A stretch of 45,837 bases of DNA from Candidatus Woesebacteria bacterium (GTDB lineage: Bacteria; Patescibacteriota; Microgenomatia; UBA1406; GWC2-37-13): the NCBI GenBank assembly GCA_020429045.1, contig JAGQLS010000011.1:1-45837 (forward strand). Direction: 5' to 3'. Positions 26,875 to 35,062 of the stretch are shown here, piece by piece. Positions within the stretch are counted from its first letter, which is position 1. The number at the start of each line of letters is the position of its first letter. The notes below the pieces were generated by a model. That model saw only the letters and a list, made by a program, of their open reading frames with translations, was not told the origin of the DNA and searched no databases. Position numbers and translations under genes: made by a program.

Positions 26875-28863
26875 TTATATTCTATTTAAAATCGTCTCCA
26901 AATCTTTTTTTGCTTCTTGTTCGGTTATATTTCTTGTTTTCCCGTTAAAATACATCCGAACATTCAATTTGTTGTCGTAAAGACCGAGGAGCTCCATGTC
27001 AACAAGAAGCTCTGACGTTTTTTTGGCAGTCGCCACAACTTCGGCGTAGGGTTTATCGTGGGGAATATTTACGTCGAGCTTAATAGTGGCATATTGAGAA
27101 GGCGGAATATATGTCGTCACCGACGAAGCGTGCGTTTTGAGATACTCAAAATCCAACTCGGCGATGTAGACTGGCTTTTTGAACTCAAGGGCTTGTGTGT
27201 ACCTCGGGTGCAGCATACCAACCATACCGATATACTCCCCCTGAGTATCTGTAACGCGAGCTTGCATCTGCTGGGTAAAAAACGCATGATCGCCTTTTTC
27301 AAATGAAACCTCATTAATGTGCAGATCTTTGCACATAAGCTCAACAATTCCTTTGAGGTCGAAAAAGTCAGTATTTGTCCCAATCGAAAGCCTGAACATT
27401 TCATCTGGAAGATCTTTTCCATTCTTCTCATATACTTTTGCTATTTCAAACATCTTCAATTCGTCGCAAAATCCTTCGTTATTTTTCATGGTCATGGCAA
27501 GAGACGGCACAAGCGAAGAGCGCAAATATTCAATTTCCGTAGAAATACTATTGGAAAGCTTAAGATGATCTCGCGGCTTCATATCAAATAACTCTATCAA
27601 TTCACGGGAAATCATCGAATAACTCATAAGCTCATTCAAACCTGCGTGCTTTAACAATAGTTTAATTTGGCGTTGAATGGTAAATTGCAGTTCAATTTCC
27701 TTGGGTTGGGGGATATACACCATAGGTGGAATATTGTTTGGAAGATTAAAATAGCCATACACACGTGCAATTTCTTCGACAATATCTTCTTTGATTTCGA
27801 TATCATCCAGTCGGAACGTAGGAACGGTAATTGTGTACTGTTCTCCATCTTTTTTTACACCAAAACCAAGAGCGGTCAAAATATTCTCAATCTGTTTTGG
27901 CTCTATCGATACGCCGATGTGGTTGTCTATGGTTTTTTGAGAAACAGTCAGTTTTTTTTCTGACATAGGGCTCGGATATATGTCATATAGCTTTGAGGCC
28001 ATTGTTCCGCCAGTAAGCTCCGTAAGGAGCGAAAGCCCCCAGACAAAGGTTGGTTCAACACGCTCGGGGTCGAGTCCTTTTTCAAAATATGTTGCTGCGA
28101 CGGTTCGTTGTCCGGTCCTCATCGAAGTCTTGCGAATATGTCGTTTGTCATAGGTTTGCACAAAAAAGACAATCGTTTTTGTTTCGTGCGTGATTGACGA
28201 GTTGAGCCCTCCCATGATGCCGCACAAGTCGATGATCGTTCCCGAACCATCCTCGATGACAATATCGCCGTCATCAAGGTCTATTTCTTTTTCGTCGAGC
28301 GTTGTCATTTTTTCGCCCTTTTGTGCTTCTCGAAGTTTCATCACTCCCCCACCGATTTTATCATAATCAAACATATGCACCGGTTGACCAAGTGCAAGCA
28401 TGAGATAGTTTGAAATATCTACCACCGTGTTTATTGCTTTTATTCCACATGCGTTCAACCTTTTTTTTATGTATTCTGGAGAGTCTTTTATATCTACATC
28501 CTTGATTACTATTGCAGTAAAGCGCGGGTTAAGCTTTTCATCAGTTTCAATTGAAAGGTTATATTCTGAGTCATTGGAAAGTTCTATTGAATCAAATGTG
28601 TATGTTTTGAGCGGGTTTTGCTTCAAATGCGCTTTTTTTCCAAATTGGGGAAGGATGGCTTGTGCCTCTTGTGCTATACCGAACATACTCGCAGTATCGA
28701 TACGATTGGAGGTAATTTCGATATCAAGCACCGTATCGTCACCTCGTTTTTCGATAGTCTCCACAGAAGGACCGCACAAAGACAGATATTTTTGCAACTC
28801 AGTTGCATTTGCATCTGTATCGAGATAGTCACAAAGCCAATTGTATGAAACCAATATATTCAT
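26875..28863 (-). CDS. pheT: Phenylalanyl-tRNA synthetase beta subunit, short form
   Basis: A 662-residue PheT, against about 790-800 in most bacteria. After the N-terminal VSYNWLCDYLD segment it passes directly to LDIEITSNRIDTASMFGIAQE, so the EMAP-II/OB tRNA-binding domain usually inserted there is missing. The B3/4 editing region, B5 domain (VSQKTIDNHIGVSI...), catalytic-like core (SYSMISRELIELFDMKP) and C-terminal anticodon-binding FDX-ACB domain (YPPSQYATIKLDVNI-like) remain. It is last in thrS-infC-rpmI-rplT-pheS-pheT. TAATAT ends 5 nt before the ATG. Confidence 0.95.
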   Translation of the reverse strand: MNILVSYNWLCDYLDTDANATELQKYLSLCGPSVETIEKRGDDTVLDIEITSNRIDTASMFGIAQEAQAILPQFGKKAHLKQNPLKTYTFDSIELSNDSEYNLSIETDEKLNPRFTAIVIKDVDIKDSPEYIKKRLNACGIKAINTVVDISNYLMLALGQPVHMFDYDKIGGGVMKLREAQKGEKMTTLDEKEIDLDDGDIVIEDGSGTIIDLCGIMGGLNSSITHETKTIVFFVQTYDKRHIRKTSMRTGQRTVAATYFEKGLDPERVEPTFVWGLSLLTELTGGTMASKLYDIYPSPMSEKKLTVSQKTIDNHIGVSIEPKQIENILTALGFGVKKDGEQYTITVPTFRLDDIEIKEDIVEEIARVYGYFNLPNNIPPMVYIPQPKEIELQFTIQRQIKLLLKHAGLNELMSYSMISRELIELFDMKPRDHLKLSNSISTEIEYLRSSLVPSLAMTMKNNEGFCDELKMFEIAKVYEKNGKDLPDEMFRLSIGTNTDFFDLKGIVELMCKDLHINEVSFEKGDHAFFTQQMQARVTDTQGEYIGMVGMLHPRYTQALEFKKPVYIAELDFEYLKTHASSVTTYIPPSQYATIKLDVNIPHDKPYAEVVATAKKTSELLVDMELLGLYDNKLNVRMYFNGKTRNITEQEAKKDLETILNRI

Positions 28864-28891
28864 TTTAAATATTAAATAGCAAATTGTAAAT

Positions 28892-29263
28892 TTATTTTTT
28901 GTTCTGTTTTAAAGTTAAAATGCTTGAAGCGAATATTTTAGAAAATTCATCTAGCTCTTTTAAAAAATCCTGAGCATCCTTTATCTCTATATAATTCGTG
29001 TCTTTTAATAATGCTATCCAAACTTTGCTTTCATTTGTCGATTTCAAACAAATAGAAAGAAAATTGGTGAATTCTTTCCTCGAGTATGACGATTGACCTT
29101 CAACGTAATTAGCCAAAATACTTGTACTGCTCCTTAACAATTGATTATTTATCACTTTCGTCGTTTGGTTATATTTTGTATTTTCTAAAGTCTTAATGAG
29201 TTTTAAAACAAATCCGTACAATCTCTTCTTTAATTTATCTTTTTTCTCTTTACCATTTTCCAT
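28892..29263 (-). CDS. Four-helix-bundle protein (S23/IVS family)
   Basis: A 123-residue helical protein. The sequence KVINNQLLRSSTSILANYVEGQSSYSRKEFTNFLSICLKSTNES is the signature of the S23-type four-helix-bundle family (TIGR02436), first seen encoded in 23S rRNA intervening sequences and now found widely in CPR and Bacteroidetes. The role is unknown; RNA binding has been suggested. It is inserted between pheS and pheT, starting 10 nt after the pheS stop, which splits an otherwise conserved gene pair. Confidence 0.88.
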   Translation of the reverse strand: MENGKEKKDKLKKRLYGFVLKLIKTLENTKYNQTTKVINNQLLRSSTSILANYVEGQSSYSRKEFTNFLSICLKSTNESKVWIALLKDTNYIEIKDAQDFLKELDEFSKIFASSILTLKQNKK

Positions 29264-29275
29264 TTAATATTCTCT

Positions 29276-30322
29276 TTAGAATTGTTTTAAAAATCGTATG
29301 TCGCCGTTGTACAAAATGCGTATATCGTCAAGCTTCAGCCCTTCTTTCATTGAATAAACCCGTTCGACACCAAAGCCAAATGCCCAGCCACTGTATTCCT
29401 CAGGATCGACTCCCCCATCGCGCAGTACATTGGGGTGCACCATACCCGTGCCACCCAGTTCAAGCCAGCCTTGTTTGCACAGCTTGCATCTTTTTCCATT
29501 CACCGTTCCTGTTCCTTTGCAGACACCACACGTGATGTCGACTTCAAATGAAGGTTCGGTAAACTGAAAATGAAACGGGCGCAGTCGAATTTCCCTCTCT
29601 GGGCCGAAAAACTGCTTGGCGAAATAGTCAATTGTACCTTTCAAATGGGTGATATTTATTCCTTTGTCTACGCAAAGCCCTTCGAACTGGTGAAACATGG
29701 GTACATGGCTTGCGTCCCAGTTGGGGCGATAGGTTTTAGCCATATTGATCATCCGAATTGGCGGTTTTCCCAATCGTTTCATTTCTCTGTTTTGACCTGA
29801 GGAGGTGTGAGGGGTAAAAAGCATTTTTCCCAGCGTGGGATCTGGTTCGTGTTCTATGAAAAACGTTTCGAAATCGTCGCGCGCAGGGTGGCCTTTGGGC
29901 ATATTGAGCGATTCAAACGAGAACCATTCCCATTCTACTTCTCGATACGACATGCGGATAAAGCCGATTTTCTCAAAAATTTTACTTATTTCATCAATGG
30001 CATAGGAAACCATGTGCAAACTTCCATGCGGATAGTGTTTTCCAGGAAGCGTTATGTCAACAGTTTTTTCTTTGCCGGCTTGTTCAATGAGCGCCTGACG
30101 ATGCTTTTCAAGTAGTGCAGAAGCCTTGTCTTTTATTTCATTGATTGTTTGTCCATAGGCTTTTCGTTCCTTTTCTGGGATTTGTTTTATGTTACGCAGT
30201 GAAGTGTTGATGCTACCTTGCCTGCCAAAATGCTTTATTTCAATTTGTTCAAGTTGAGATAGCGTAGTCGTTCCCGAGACGTCAGTAACGATTTCGGTAT
30301 ATAGGTTGTCAACGTCTTGCAT
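29276..30322 (-). CDS. pheS: Phenylalanyl-tRNA synthetase alpha subunit
   Basis: A 348-residue class II synthetase subunit. It has an N-terminal coiled-coil, then GKHYPHGSLHMVSYAIDEISKIFEKIGF, the motif 2 region HTSSGQNREMKR and the motif 3 region GWAFGFGVERVYSMKEGL. A zinc-ribbon-like insert, CGVCKGTGTVNGKRCKLC, precedes WLELGGTGMVHPNVL; similar inserts occur in other bacterial PheS. The start is ATG 30322: TATAAT (30334-30329) ends 6 nt before it, an internal promoter of the operon that makes a leaderless pheS mRNA. Confidence 0.96.
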   Translation of the reverse strand: MQDVDNLYTEIVTDVSGTTTLSQLEQIEIKHFGRQGSINTSLRNIKQIPEKERKAYGQTINEIKDKASALLEKHRQALIEQAGKEKTVDITLPGKHYPHGSLHMVSYAIDEISKIFEKIGFIRMSYREVEWEWFSFESLNMPKGHPARDDFETFFIEHEPDPTLGKMLFTPHTSSGQNREMKRLGKPPIRMINMAKTYRPNWDASHVPMFHQFEGLCVDKGINITHLKGTIDYFAKQFFGPEREIRLRPFHFQFTEPSFEVDITCGVCKGTGTVNGKRCKLCKQGWLELGGTGMVHPNVLRDGGVDPEEYSGWAFGFGVERVYSMKEGLKLDDIRILYNGDIRFLKQF

Positions 30323-30358
30323 ATGAAGATTATACACAACAAAGCGATGTTTTAAAGC

Positions 30359-30706
30359 TTATTTCTTTGTTGACTTGACGATTTCTCCAAATGTTTTGGG
30401 GTAGTCGAGAGCGAGTTGGGCCAATATTTTTCTATCAAGCTCGATATGTGCGTTTTTAAGATCTTTGATGAAGGCGCTGTATTTGACATCATATTGCTTG
30501 AGAGCTGCATTGACTCTGGTGATCCATTGTCTGCGAATATCTCTTTTTTTACGTTTGCGGCCGGCAAAAGCGTATTGACCAGCATGCAACACTGCTTCTT
30601 TGGCTTTTTTGATTTGTTTACGACGAGCCATCCAGTATCCTTTGGCTTGTTTAAGAACTTTTTTGTGTTTTCGGTTTGTTACGGTACCACCTTTTATTCT
30701 GGTCAT
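30359..30706 (-). CDS. rplT: 50S ribosomal protein L20
   Basis: A 115-residue basic protein: MTRIKGGTVTNRKHKKVLKQAKGYWMARRKQIKKAKEAV, then LWITRVNAAL-like RQWITRVNAALKQYDVKYSAFI. L20 is an early 50S assembly protein and in many bacteria represses this operon by binding its leader; no leader mimic is identifiable here. Order infC-rpmI-rplT is conserved. Confidence 0.97.
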   Translation of the reverse strand: MTRIKGGTVTNRKHKKVLKQAKGYWMARRKQIKKAKEAVLHAGQYAFAGRKRKKRDIRRQWITRVNAALKQYDVKYSAFIKDLKNAHIELDRKILAQLALDYPKTFGEIVKSTKK

Positions 30707-30767
30707 AGTATGTAAAGTAAAAAATCAAAATTATTATTTATTATGCATGAGTCATTTTGTATTGTTC

Positions 30768-30971
30768 TTAGGCTTTACCCATCATTTGCTTAATTTTTTT
30801 CTTAAATGTCCCTTGCACTTCTTTGTCTTGTTTGAGTCTTCTAATATCTTTTTTGCTCTTTTTGGACATGAGATGTCGTGCACCTTTTGAACGATGTAAA
30901 ACTTTTCCCGATCCAGTAATTTTGAATCGTTTTGCTGCCGATTTTCGTGTTTTTTGTTTGTTTTTTTTCAT
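30768..30971 (-). CDS. rpmI: 50S ribosomal protein L35
   Basis: A 67-residue L35, MKKNKQKTRKSAAKRFKITGSGKVLHRSKGARHLMSKKS... The family hallmarks are the KxxAxKRFKxTGSGKxxR core and the HLMSKKSKKDIRRL segment. It lies between infC and rplT as in most bacteria. Confidence 0.96.
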   Translation of the reverse strand: MKKNKQKTRKSAAKRFKITGSGKVLHRSKGARHLMSKKSKKDIRRLKQDKEVQGTFKKKIKQMMGKA

Positions 30972-31021
30972 GAAATTAGTCTGTAACGTTAAAAGATATA
31001 AGATGCGAGCTTCAAGGTGAA

Positions 31022-31564
31022 TTACTTTTTTTTGGAAACTACCGCTCGGACGATTCTACCTTCGATTCGTGGTTCTTTGGCTACATTTACTTCTCCAAGT
31101 TTGCCGATGAACTCGGCAACTGCCTTCAGAGCCATGGGCTTCTTGGTCATTTCGCGTCCTTTCAATTTTAAGTTTATGCGCACTTGATTTCCTTTTTCTA
31201 AAAATTCTATTGAGCGATTCACAAATCGTTGCAAGTCGGCTTCTGCAGTAAACAAAGAGAAATTAACATCTTTTGTACCGCTTTTTTTTGAACCTTTTTT
31301 TGCCTCTTTATCTTTTTTATTTTCTAAATAAAGAAATTTTTTAAAATCAATAATTTTCGCAACGGGTGGTTTGGCTGCTGGCGCAATGAGAACAAGGTCT
31401 AAGCCTTCTTCTTTTGCTTTTCGTATTGCGTCGTCTTTTGACAACACCCCCACCTGTTCACCACTTGCCGTTATGACGCGCAGTTCTTGCGCTTCGATTT
31501 TATAGTTCAGATAGTAATATTTTCGTTTCTGATATGGTTTGTATCTTCGGTTTCTGTTATTCAA
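31022..31564 (-). CDS. infC: Translation initiation factor IF-3
   Basis: A 180-residue IF-3 that keeps ribosomal subunits apart and proofreads the start codon. The N domain (LNYKIEAQELRVITASGEQVGVLSKDDAI ... LIAPAAKPPVAKIIDFKKFLY), a lysine-rich linker and the C domain (FLEKGNQVRINLKLKGREMTKKPMA) are complete. No ATG, GTG or earlier start fits; the frame opens with TTG at 31564-31562. A rare start codon on infC is a known autoregulatory device in other bacteria (AUU in E. coli). The promoter TTGCAA-17-TATAAT lies 31-59 nt upstream. Confidence 0.95.
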   Translation of the reverse strand: MNNRNRRYKPYQKRKYYYLNYKIEAQELRVITASGEQVGVLSKDDAIRKAKEEGLDLVLIAPAAKPPVAKIIDFKKFLYLENKKDKEAKKGSKKSGTKDVNFSLFTAEADLQRFVNRSIEFLEKGNQVRINLKLKGREMTKKPMALKAVAEFIGKLGEVNVAKEPRIEGRIVRAVVSKKK

Positions 31565-31632: not shown

Positions 31633-33384
31633 CTAATCAATCGACTTTTCTTGTATGCGTTTCTTTGCTTCGTTTACGAATTGTTCGACGCTCACGTCTT
31701 TGCTTTTTCCATCTCGTATGCGTACATTCACACTCCCCTTTTCAATCTCTTTGTCGCCGACGATGAGCATATAATAAACTTTCTCTTTTTGCGCATCGCG
31801 TATTTTTTTCTGCATAGAAGCTGAGCGGTCATCGATCTCAAATCGAATATTGGCATCGTGCAGCTCTTTCCCAATTTTTTGCGCATATTTCTGGTGCCGG
31901 TCTGCGATTGGTATCATTTTCACTTGCACAGGCGTAAGCCAAAGCGGAAAATTCCCTCCAAAATGCTCGATCAGAAATCCGATAAAGCGTTCGTGAGAGC
32001 CCAGTGGCGCTCGGTGGATGATCGCTGGTGTCTGCAAGGAGCCATCGTGCGATACGTACTTCAAATCAAATCTGCCTCCCATGTACAAATCAATCTGGTT
32101 CGTGGAAACCGCAAACTGTCTACCTATTGAGGAATGGACAATGAAATCTATTTTTGGGCCGTAAAACGCTGCACTTCCGTGCTCTTCGACCATCTCGATA
32201 TCTACCTGCGCAACTGCCTTGCGCATAAGCTCTTCTGCAAGCTGCCACATCTTCTCGTCGCCGTGATACTTATCTTTTTTGTTAGGATCTCGAAGTGCCA
32301 TCTCAAGATGATATTTTTCTATCCCTAGCGATTTGTAATAGTATTCATGCAAACGCATGACCGTTGCAAACTCTTCAGCGGCCTGCTCGATACTGCAGTA
32401 AATATGAGCATCGTTTATGTCGAGTCCGCGTACGCGCATAAGGCCGAATAGCTCGCCCGACGCTTCGTAGCGATAACACATACCATATTCGGCAAGGCGT
32501 AGTGGAAGTTCGCGATAGCTGCGTGGTCGCGCTTTGTACACCATATGATGGTGCGGGCAATTCATGGGTTTGAGATAGTAATTTTCGCCGTCATCAAGCA
32601 CCATGGGCGGGAACATATCGCCTTTGTAATACGGTAAATGTCCAGACGTGTGGTACAGACTTTCTTTGGTGATATTTGGCGTGCTGACGCGTTGATATCC
32701 CCATTCTTGTTCTACCGACTTTGCCCAGTTTTCGAGTTCTTCTTTTATAATGTTGCCTTTTGGTAGCCAAATAATAAGCCCAGGTCCGACTTCCTCGCTT
32801 ATGGTAAATAAATCGAGTTCTTGGCCAAGCTTGCGGTGATCGCGCCTTTTTGCTTCTTCTTTGAGGTGTAAGTATTCGTTAAGACCTTCTTTGCTTTCAA
32901 ATGCCGTGCCATAGATGCGTGTAAGCATCTTATTTTTTTCGTTTCCTCGCCAATATGCACCTGCAAGGGATAGAAGTTTAAAGTGTTTAAGTTCTTTATT
33001 TGGGTGTTCAATGTGACCGCCACGGCAAAGATCGATGAAATTGCCAGATTTGTAGATACTGAGTTGTTTATCTTCTTCAGCGAATTCGTTAATGAGCTCT
33101 TGTTTATATTCGTTGTCTTTATATCGTGCAAGCGCTTCATTTTTATTTACTTCTATTCTTTCAAATGAATCCCATTTTTTAACCAATTCTCTCATTTTTT
33201 GTTCAATTTTTGGTAAATCTTCATCAGAAATTTTTATTTCTCCAAAATCGAAGTCGTAATAAAATCCGTCTTCAATAGGTGGTCCAATGGTTGGTTTGGC
33301 TTGTGGAAATAGTTCTAATACAGCAGCTGCAAGCAGATGGGCTGCTGAGTGTCGTAGTTGGGAAAGGTGATCTGTTTGGTTCAT
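31633..33384 (-). CDS. thrS: Threonyl-tRNA synthetase lacking the TGS domain
   Basis: A 583-residue ThrRS, about 60 residues shorter than the common form. It begins directly in the N2 editing domain (LRHSAAHLLAAAVLELFP; zinc-site-like HSAAH), so the N-terminal TGS domain is missing. The catalytic core has MNCPHHHMVYKA (motif 1-2 region), RYEASGELFGLMRVRG and motif 3 PAIIHRAPLGSHERF, followed by the anticodon domain. Start ATG 33384 is chosen because TATAAT (33396-33391) ends 6 nt before it; an upstream in-frame start at 33414 precedes that box. The upstream region carries a threonine attenuator (33504-33651), so the gene appears to have two modes of expression. Confidence 0.95.
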   Translation of the reverse strand: MNQTDHLSQLRHSAAHLLAAAVLELFPQAKPTIGPPIEDGFYYDFDFGEIKISDEDLPKIEQKMRELVKKWDSFERIEVNKNEALARYKDNEYKQELINEFAEEDKQLSIYKSGNFIDLCRGGHIEHPNKELKHFKLLSLAGAYWRGNEKNKMLTRIYGTAFESKEGLNEYLHLKEEAKRRDHRKLGQELDLFTISEEVGPGLIIWLPKGNIIKEELENWAKSVEQEWGYQRVSTPNITKESLYHTSGHLPYYKGDMFPPMVLDDGENYYLKPMNCPHHHMVYKARPRSYRELPLRLAEYGMCYRYEASGELFGLMRVRGLDINDAHIYCSIEQAAEEFATVMRLHEYYYKSLGIEKYHLEMALRDPNKKDKYHGDEKMWQLAEELMRKAVAQVDIEMVEEHGSAAFYGPKIDFIVHSSIGRQFAVSTNQIDLYMGGRFDLKYVSHDGSLQTPAIIHRAPLGSHERFIGFLIEHFGGNFPLWLTPVQVKMIPIADRHQKYAQKIGKELHDANIRFEIDDRSASMQKKIRDAQKEKVYYMLIVGDKEIEKGSVNVRIRDGKSKDVSVEQFVNEAKKRIQEKSID

Positions 33385-33390
33385 AAGATT

Positions 33391-33396
33391 ATTATA
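33391..33396 (-). promoter_or_regulatory. thrS proximal -10 box
   Basis: TATAAT ends 6 nt before the thrS ATG, the spacing seen at many leaderless genes here. The -35 is weak (CTAACT at 17-nt spacing), so it may give only basal expression beneath the attenuated upstream promoter. Confidence 0.5.
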
Positions 33397-33406
33397 ATTG
33401 ATAATG

Positions 33407-33500
33407 GGTGACAAGTTAGATAAAAGTCAAAAAATTTATAACGTCGAAAGTTTGTAAATCGAAAAGTTACAAGGTATACGTTTCGAGTTTTACATTTTTC
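33407..33500. repeat. Modular intergenic repeat, diverged copy 5
   Basis: Between the attenuator terminator and the thrS start: AGTTAGATAAAAGTC, AAAATTTATAACGTCGAAAG units, then TATACGTTTCGAGTTTTACA. Module order matches the other copies but the GC-rich part is missing. Confidence 0.5.
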
Positions 33501-33503
33501 ACC

Positions 33504-33530
33504 AAAAAAAAGCCCTCCTGGCTTGGAGGG
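33504..33530 (-). terminator. thrS attenuator terminator
   Basis: On the minus strand: CCCTCC (33530-33525), loop AAGCCA, GGAGGG (33518-33513), then C and eight Ts (33511-33504). It is an intrinsic terminator about 40 nt downstream of a threonine-rich leader peptide and 120 nt upstream of thrS. Confidence 0.9.
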
Positions 33531-33570
33531 TTATTTTTTATAAATGTAAGCCACTACACACCCTCCGTTT

Positions 33571-33615
33571 TTAACGGGTTGTGGTAGTTGTTAATACGAG
33601 GCTTACGTTTTTCAT
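33571..33615 (-). CDS. Threonine leader peptide of the thrS attenuator
   Basis: A 14-residue frame, MKNVSLVLTTTTTR, from ATG 33615 to TAA 33573-33571. Five consecutive threonine codons (ACA ACT ACC ACA ACC) end two codons before the stop. The -10 box of the upstream promoter ends 8 nt before the ATG, so the peptide is the first thing translated on the transcript. It is analogous in design to ThrL of E. coli, which governs thrABC rather than thrS. It is too short to be recognised by homology; the case rests on the Thr run and the RNA structure behind it. Confidence 0.82.
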   Translation of the reverse strand: MKNVSLVLTTTTTR

Positions 33616-33623
33616 GCAGAACT

Positions 33624-33651
33624 ATTGTAGCAGAAACAAGTGTTTTGTCAA
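33624..33651 (-). promoter_or_regulatory. Promoter of the thrS leader
   Basis: Minus strand: TTGACA (33651-33646), 16-nt spacer, TACAAT (33629-33624). Transcription would start at or within 2 nt of the leader-peptide ATG at 33615. Confidence 0.8.
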
Positions 33652-33704
33652 ACTTCATATCAAAATACACCAATGCGCACTTTCTCTATCACCACATCAA
33701 ACCA

Positions 33705-33730
33705 CTAAACCAACAAAAATGTTGGTTTAG
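33705..33730. other. Long hairpin between DUF378 gene and thrS leader
   Basis: A perfect 11-bp inverted repeat, CTAAACCAACA and TGTTGGTTTAG, with a 4-nt A loop. It follows the DUF378 gene by about 23 nt on the minus strand but has no downstream T run in that direction. It could act as a transcript 3' end protector or a factor-dependent terminator. Confidence 0.55.
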
Positions 33731-33752
33731 GCAAAAAATTTAACAATAGAAG

Positions 33753-33959
33753 TTATTTCGAGCACATTTTGCAGTCCTTATTGTGGGTCATAACCAGATA
33801 GAGACCGGCAAGACCAACCAATATATATACGAGATTCTCAAGCATGGGTAGGGACCCAAAAAGTGCCGTTACGAGATTGAAATCAAGCAATCCCACAAGA
33901 AGCCAGTTAAGGGCTCCTACCACCACGAGCAAAAAGCTCAACATGTGTAGTTCTTTCAC
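33753..33959 (-). CDS. DUF378 family membrane protein
   Basis: A 68-residue protein with two transmembrane helices. MLSFLLVVVGALNWLLVGLLDFNLVTALFG and LENLVYILVGLAGLYLVM match the DUF378 (YuzA-like) pattern GALNWGLVG...DLVAALFG...YILVGLAGLY. The C-terminus HNKDCKMCSK contains a CxxC. The function is unknown. The start codon is GTG 33959, preceded by the best Shine-Dalgarno site in the window, AAAGGAGGTGA at 33977-33967, in sharp contrast to the leaderless genes around it. Confidence 0.88.
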   Translation of the reverse strand: MKELHMLSFLLVVVGALNWLLVGLLDFNLVTALFGSLPMLENLVYILVGLAGLYLVMTHNKDCKMCSK

Positions 33960-33966
33960 GATATCT

Positions 33967-33977
33967 TCACCTCCTTT
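33967..33977 (-). promoter_or_regulatory. Strong Shine-Dalgarno site of the DUF378 gene
   Basis: AAAGGAGGTGA on the minus strand, 7 nt before the GTG start. It shows that the canonical anti-Shine-Dalgarno interaction is available in this organism. A TATACT box lies about 10 nt farther upstream. Confidence 0.85.
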
Positions 33978-34072
33978 CGCATAGTATAGTTTTTAAACAG
34001 ACGAATAACACTTATCTCTAATCATAACGGACTTGGAGCATAATAGGGAGAAAATAGAAAGAAAATTACGTA

Positions 34073-35062
34073 TCAAATACCCACAGTTTTTTTCACGCGC
34101 TGCAGTGTGGTTGACGCAATAGCGTTTGCTTTTTCCGCACAAGTTTTACGAATATCAATAATATGTTTTTTATCTTTCATCAATGCAACATAGTTTTTCC
34201 GTATTGAAGCAAAATAGCGCATAAACGTTTCAAAAACGATAGTTTTCACCTCTACATCGCCTATCGTGCCTTTTTTGTAACGCGCTTTCATTTCAGAAAG
34301 CTGTGCCGAGTCAAAATCCATGAGTTGCAAATAGCTAAATGCGACATTTTTGCGTGGGTCGCCTGGGTCGGTCGGGTGGATACGATTGGGGTCTGTAGTT
34401 ATGGCCATGATTTGTTTTTTTACCACCTTTTCCGCGGCAAAAATAGGTATATCGTTACCAAGCGACTTGCTCATTTTGCGCTGTCCATCGATACCTATGA
34501 TTCGTGCTGCTTCTTTTTGTACAAAAAGTTCTGGGATTTTCAGAATGTTTCCATACCGCTTGTTGAAAGTGTGTGCAATTTCGCGGCATATTTCGACGTG
34601 CTGGGTTTGGTCCTCGCCAACAGGCACAATATCGGCATCAAATGCCAGGATATCTGCAGACATGAGTACGGGATACGAAAAGAGCCCCATGCTGATTTGA
34701 TCATGCGATTTGGCATTTTTCAGTTTGTCTTTGTATGCGTGCATGCGTTTGAGCTCTGCAACAGTCACGACATTATTCAATATGGTCTGGAGGTACGGAA
34801 TGGCGTGGATGTCAGATTGCACGAAAAAGGTTGTTTTTTTTGGGTTTATGCCACAGGCGAGAAACTGTACATAGGTTTCAAACGTATTCTGTTCGACCAC
34901 GTTTTTGTCAAAAACCGTGTTGAGCGCATGGATATTGGCAATAAAATAGAAGCTCTCTGCGGTTTTTTGAAATTCGACATTGGGTTTGACCGCGCCAAAG
35001 TAGTTCCCAAGGTGCAATCCTTTGCTGGAGCTTGGCGTGGTACCGGAAAATGACCGTTTCAT
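34073..35062 (-). CDS. trpS: Tryptophanyl-tRNA synthetase
   Basis: A 329-residue class I synthetase. The HIGH-like motif is GLHLGNYFGAV and the KMSKS motif is GQRKMSKSLGN (about 195-205). GEDQTQHVEICREIAHTFNKRYG and GLFSYPVLMSADILAFDADIVPVG are family hallmarks. Complete length. The promoter TAGACT-17-TACAAT ends 9 nt before the ATG. No Trp-rich leader peptide is seen upstream, so it lacks the attenuator design found at thrS. Confidence 0.96.
   Translation of the reverse strand: MKRSFSGTTPSSSKGLHLGNYFGAVKPNVEFQKTAESFYFIANIHALNTVFDKNVVEQNTFETYVQFLACGINPKKTTFFVQSDIHAIPYLQTILNNVVTVAELKRMHAYKDKLKNAKSHDQISMGLFSYPVLMSADILAFDADIVPVGEDQTQHVEICREIAHTFNKRYGNILKIPELFVQKEAARIIGIDGQRKMSKSLGNDIPIFAAEKVVKKQIMAITTDPNRIHPTDPGDPRKNVAFSYLQLMDFDSAQLSEMKARYKKGTIGDVEVKTIVFETFMRYFASIRKNYVALMKDKKHIIDIRKTCAEKANAIASTTLQRVKKTVGI

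Follow-up and report, generated by a model that had tools for sequence, protein, structure and literature searches.

How does a bacterium with few regulators notice that an amino acid is running short? Patescibacteria have tiny genomes and few known regulators, and their amino-acid biosynthesis is mostly missing, which gives this question its weight. A possible answer lies in Candidatus Woesebacteria bacterium (GenBank assembly GCA_020429045.1, contig JAGQLS010000011.1, positions 1 to 45,837; this whole 45,837-nt stretch is called the window), in which a compact element at 33504-33651 precedes thrS, the gene for threonyl-tRNA synthetase (ThrRS). A preliminary description read the element as a ribosome-mediated attenuator built on a run of threonine codons. 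The threonine run and the covariation of three helices support that reading, and we estimate with roughly 90% probability that thrS is controlled through this element by ribosome-mediated transcription attenuation, with the charging of tRNA-Thr as the signal.

The leader upstream of thrS

Every element that had been described is present base for base on the minus strand, to which all window coordinates given here refer. The leader opens with a sigma-70-type promoter (33624-33651) in which TTGACA (33651-33646) and TACAAT (33629-33624) are separated by a 16-nt spacer, TG precedes the -10 box, and 11 of 12 box positions agree with the consensus. Eight nucleotides further on, an ATG (33615-33613) begins the leader frame MKNVSLVLTTTTTR (33571-33615), which has 14 codons, ends in TAA at 33573-33571, and carries five candidate regulatory Thr codons, ACA ACT ACC ACA ACC, at 33577-33591. 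The coding part of the leader also provides segment 1 (33573-33606), whose parts GTAAGCC (33606-33600), ACTACCAC (33588-33581), and CCGTT (33577-33573) have as their partners GGCTTAC, GTGTGTAGT, and AACGG in segment 2 (33546-33569). Within segment 2, the G-rich antiterminator strand GGAGGGT (33566-33560) starts 4 nt past the stop codon and can pair with segment 3, ACCCTCC (33525-33531). Segment 3 is at the same time the 5' arm of an intrinsic terminator, CCCTCC-AAGCCA-GGAGGG-C-TTTTTTTT (the 3:4 helix, 33504-33530), in which the arms CCCTCC (33530-33525) and GGAGGG (33518-33513) enclose the loop AAGCCA and are followed by a C and eight T residues (33511-33504). For the leader (113 nt), the predicted fold is 1:2 plus 3:4, with a free energy of -35.1 kcal/mol; dinucleotide shuffles average -20.6 +/- 3.3, and none of 200 is as stable (z -4.4). 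As had been proposed, the gene downstream is thrS (31633-33384; NCBIfam TIGR00418, 668 bits), and its ATG at 33384 lies 119 nt past the T run of the terminator. The locus thus combines the features by which an attenuator is recognized: cognate codons clustered in a predicted leader frame, mutually exclusive 1:2, 2:3, and 3:4 helices, a terminator with its U run, and a cognate gene.

Based on these parts and on their conservation, covariation, and spacing, we posit a mechanism in which the transcription start, the stalling, the termination, and the response to threonine are predicted from the DNA. RNA polymerase would start at or beside the leader ATG, and a ribosome would translate the peptide of 14 codons. 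With ample Thr-tRNA, this ribosome would run on to the stop codon and cover the G-rich segment 2, so that the 3:4 hairpin and the U run would release an RNA of about 110 nt; if no ribosome translates the frame, 1:2 would pair, and termination would again be the outcome. When Thr-tRNA is scarce, a ribosome stalled on the threonine run would open 1:2 and leave segment 2 free to pair with segment 3, in which case the terminator could not form and thrS would be transcribed.

Recurrence and covariation among relatives

Is this arrangement peculiar to one contig? We read 69 thrS upstream regions, the window included, of which 58 come from the same family; the search for relatives returned no second genome of the same genus. 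The relatives' ThrRS is mostly 43-57% identical to that of the window, with a best value of 63%, and at such distances intergenic DNA is not kept by recent descent alone, so likeness there is informative. As curated by eye, 32 of the 69 regions (28 of the 58 within the family) carry a short ATG frame with 2-6 threonine codons, mostly clustered as a run, then a G-rich segment that begins about 2 nt past the stop codon, and a terminator at no more than about 22-45 nt from the frame. The frame in the window thus has Thr-rich counterparts at the same place in 31 further relatives, and the arrangement is not special to its own genome, a correction to the preliminary description. An automated scan for a terminator preceded by a run of each of the 20 residues found threonine at 22 of the 69 loci and every other residue at one locus at most, and a scan based on a ThrRS alignment found a threonine-run frame with a terminator in only 2 of 77 thrS upstream regions, mostly from unrelated bacteria. 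The leader codons number 51 ACT, 47 ACC, 30 ACA, and 3 ACG; the residue is kept while the third base varies, which bears out the expectation set down in the preliminary description. Nor do relatives shed the parts singly: the whole set is either kept or missing, bar a few weak or decayed copies. Two relatives look like such decay, one with the promoter joined to the terminator (L045) and one with a hairpin that lacks the terminator (L060).

Two side observations concern these same regions. In several relatives (G022, G027, G040, G042, G052, G062, and G069), ThrRS is about 410 aa long, and the query is matched only in its C-terminal two thirds. In two others (L298 3293-3691, of G079, and L293, of G060), a coiled-coil-like frame upstream of thrS ends in ..VFITTTSS or ..VYTTAPSA; at L298 a terminator follows (model match E 2e-4), as though a gene had taken up a leader at its 3' end.

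Do the helices covary, as the preliminary description anticipated? All three do. In a partner-swap test of 1:2 and 2:3, each coding segment was matched with the post-stop segment of its own genome or of another genome, and each post-stop segment with a terminator arm chosen in the same two ways. Own partners beat all 5000 permutations (z -5.5 for 1:2 and -7.6 for 2:3) and, with one genome per genus, all 20000 (z -4.1 and -5.9). We also aligned 37 thrS leaders under the guidance of a model; this alignment, which was fitted to 1:2/3:4 and is therefore biased towards that structure, gave 79 cells with both sides changed for 1:2 plus 3:4 compared with 24.9 +/- 5.5 in shuffles (0 of 500); for 2:3, whose pairs were taken from the same 37 sequences in which they were scored, the counts were 51 and 27.8 +/- 4.5 (0 of 500). 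In this alignment 96% of the terminator cells are paired, and the covariation score falls about threefold when partners are slid. Given 13 leaders aligned without guidance, RNAalifold settled on the 2:3 antiterminator unprompted; a MAFFT alignment of all leaders was dropped, since helix 1:2 was misaligned in it and RNAalifold found the terminator alone.

The spacing of the parts is also regular. Helix 2:3 begins a median of 2 nt past the stop codon (interquartile range [IQR] 0-2), 14 nt from the last threonine codon (IQR 13-15), and 24 nt from the first codon of the run. With this spacing, a ribosome that completes the peptide would sit over segment 2 and one stalled early in the run would spare it, which is the geometry that the putative ribosome-footprint mechanism would need.

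The start of the message appears similarly constrained. Most relatives have a TATAAT-like -10 box whose end lies 6-8 nt ahead of the leader ATG (8 nt in the window); a TTGACA-like/TATAAT-like pair ending 4-13 nt before it occurs in 17 of the 32 leaders compared with 0.8% of shuffles, and a Shine-Dalgarno (SD)-like string precedes the ATG in only one of the 32. Based on the -10 spacing and the missing SD, the leader peptide is likely read from a leaderless RNA. At two loci (L016 3374 and L048 170), a tRNA-Val(GAC) gene overlaps the leader frame by one base, the A in which its encoded CCA tail ends also serving as the first base of the leader ATG, possibly another route to a nearly leaderless message; in many relatives tRNA-Val stands directly upstream of the thrS leader or of thrS itself.

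Other residues and other genes in the class

Does the same architecture serve other amino acids? We searched a covariance model, R1, in 280 genomes of the class (E <= 0.01) and obtained matches in 94, although near-threshold matches include plain terminators. In the genome of the window, the leader described above is the one match, and its hisS has no His leader. Elsewhere in the class, many of the matches read are thrS leaders in other families (L166, L171, L176-L178, L182, L183, L237, L238, and L245), and in others the coding run changes with the gene that follows. HHH or HH runs precede hisS (L167, L219, and L248), and a separate scan upstream of hisS added His runs at L194, L207, L213, and L209; FFFF precedes pheS (L231), KK..KK lysS (L226), W..W trpB (L236), FYFY..Y the 3-deoxy-D-arabino-heptulosonate 7-phosphate synthase gene (L220), CCC an enzyme of the cystathionine gamma-synthase family (Cys/Met pyridoxal phosphate enzymes; L224), ITII..I ilvA (L228), and IIVTTTI aspartokinase (L229). 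For twelve leader/gene pairs, hand-picked for a clear amino-acid link of the gene in a survey that was not blind, the cognate-residue score is 36; permuting the pairs gives 12.0 +/- 3.6, and none of 100000 permutations reaches 36. The architecture is therefore not special to thrS, a further correction to the preliminary description. Five further R1 matches (L162, L170, L252, L255, and L258) were rejected on inspection as plain terminators or coding sequence.

Threonine leaders also precede genes other than synthetases. Two genomes, G072 and G075, have no leader beside thrS; in these, a threonine leader heads a tdh-kbl-thrS operon (L216 and L290 in G072; L295 940-3256 in G075). The first protein of the operon matches solved L-threonine 3-dehydrogenases (up to E 5e-115), and the closest family to the second, with a score under that family's cut-off, is glycine C-acetyltransferase. 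Homologues of the dehydrogenase gene follow threonine leaders in three other genomes (L217, L227, and L251). These arrangements suggest that threonine dehydrogenase is switched on at threonine scarcity, and an enzyme raised when threonine is scarce may run towards threonine.

In total, a classical mode of control seems to be in wide use within this Patescibacterial group. We lean, with some reserve, towards a broader model in which peptide-leader attenuation is a main amino-acid-sensing system of the class: one compact, mostly leaderless architecture would be recoded for several residues (Thr, His, Phe, Lys, Trp, Cys, Ile, and aromatic; possibly Ser and branched-chain), would stand before genes for aminoacyl-tRNA synthetases (aaRS), biosynthetic enzymes, and other metabolic functions such as tdh-kbl-thrS, and would replace the T-box-like elements found upstream of thrS in other classes of the phylum. 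If this model is true, the class-wide system would hold leader types that have rarely or never been described, such as Lys before lysS. If widespread, the set of attenuators would show from genomes alone which amino acids are monitored and which genes are raised, and would give testable functions to neighboring genes. For example, leaders with CTCTT (L184 and L218), FYYY (L244), and HHH (L242 and L180) runs precede uncharacterized genes, and those tested have no family match; these leaders could tie the genes to Cys/Thr, aromatic, and His metabolism. Tandem threonine leaders (L257 and L259) precede an uncharacterized frame of 454-496 aa in G583, and two R1 matches lie side by side in G002 (C12 1365-1595).

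Competing explanations and known systems

Several observations weigh against an attenuator that governs thrS in the way we propose. About half of the family genomes have no leader beside thrS, including the closest ThrRS relative inspected (63%; L036, of G058), which implies that the leader is dispensable or has been gained and lost; the operon-head leaders in G072 and G075 indicate that absence beside thrS is not always true absence. To these is added the structural bias of the 37-leader alignment given above. Finally, 6 nt upstream of the thrS ATG lies a TATAAT box (33391-33396), possibly a second promoter from which thrS would escape the attenuator. A box 4-13 nt before the thrS ATG occurs in 41 of 68 genomes (60%) compared with 25% expected and is enriched in relatives both with and without the leader; a -35 accompanies it in only 2 of the 68, and no SD was seen before thrS in any of them.

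Could this box be the only promoter of thrS? The hairpin would then be the ordinary terminator of the upstream unit, which comprises a DUF378 gene and trpS, and the threonine frame would be chance. Intergenic terminators are common, and the box near 33391 with its counterparts in relatives fits this proposal. However, the leader has a separate consensus promoter, threonine frames recur specifically (22 of 69 regions, and one at most for each other residue), segment 2 covaries with the coding segment, a pairing for which a simple terminator has no use, and the same architecture precedes matching genes with other residues; we regard a plain terminator as very unlikely. Alternatively, ThrRS or a regulator might bind the leader RNA as an operator, with the threonine frame incidental. 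E. coli thrS, which is autoregulated by ThrRS binding to its own mRNA, offers a precedent, and the leader hairpin is stable. Yet the element ends in a terminator 119 nt short of the thrS start, its stem sequences vary while pairing is kept, and the runs switch to His, Phe, and Lys before hisS, pheS, and lysS, all of which makes the chance of a protein-bound operator remote.

Is a T-box or another tRNA-binding riboswitch conceivable? Among 26 thrS upstream regions of other Patescibacterial classes, where only one threonine leader was found (L266) and the R1 search outside the class gave few matches, nine carry a T-box-like GTGGAACC motif (L260, L264, L265, L274-L276, L282, L284, and L287), all without an Rfam match. 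Other lineages of the phylum thus have T-box-like GTGGAACC/ATGGAACC elements ahead of thrS, and related ones occur at L012, L025, and L078; T-box control at L012 and L025, suspected from GGATGGAACC, found no match in Rfam. The window leader, in contrast, is only about 110 nt long and contains no GTGGAACC-like motif, and 33300-34100 gives no T-box (RF00230) match even at E 10, so that a riboswitch of this kind is scarcely credible here.

How does the proposed attenuator compare with known systems? Enterobacterial thrL regulates thrABC, has mixed Thr and Ile codons, and is not leaderless; with the window leader it shares a threonine codon run, mutually exclusive hairpins, and a terminator. Its Rfam model (RF00506, Thr_leader) matches the leader along the full length of the model at 28.2 bits (E 0.0044), under the curated cut-off of 55 bits, and Rfam returned no leader family above cut-off for 20 loci with related leaders. 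As a correction to the preliminary description, a peptide leader on thrS has a precedent: thrL of Streptomyces lividans TK24 has been published (PMC8079986) and resembles the present case in its threonine leader peptide, its position before the ThrRS gene, and its leaderless transcript, a feature that is predicted here. For that leader, two Thr in 18 residues, one hairpin, and no U-rich tract are reported, whereas the window leader has clustered threonine codons, the full 1:2/2:3/3:4 set, and a U run, and belongs to another phylum. Classical attenuation of aaRS genes is known for pheST in gamma-proteobacteria and trpS/leuS in Streptomyces (PMC1262725), with other amino acids and in other lineages. 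In bacilli, His leader peptides precede hisS paralogues and switch with T-boxes (PMC2965389); there too a leader peptide precedes an aaRS gene that in relatives has a T-box, but the organisms are Firmicutes and the residue is His. The Patescibacterial leaders may add a case of such switching inside one phylum. The leaderless polycysteine open reading frames of mycobacteria (Canestrari et al. 2020, cited in PMC13236596) are, judging from the title of that work, alike in being short with a run of the sensed residue, in that case Cys, and in being leaderless, as is predicted for the window leader. A literature search for attenuation in Patescibacteria or the Candidate Phyla Radiation found nothing relevant, which is no proof of absence. 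The mechanism itself is already known; what is new is its occurrence in Patescibacteria and, apparently, a multi-amino-acid regulon in a class of that phylum.

Two minor features of the locus deserve mention. AT-rich GACTTTATAGACTTTT-like repeats lie between genes of the same genome, in the window at 33500-33415 and elsewhere at L002-L005; matches of the post-terminator stretch to other contigs of the genome proved to be AT-rich repeats and not leaders. On the 3' side of thrS lie infC, rpmI, rplT, pheS, and pheT (26875-31564), which may be co-regulated, perhaps being transcribed together with thrS upon read-through of the terminator.
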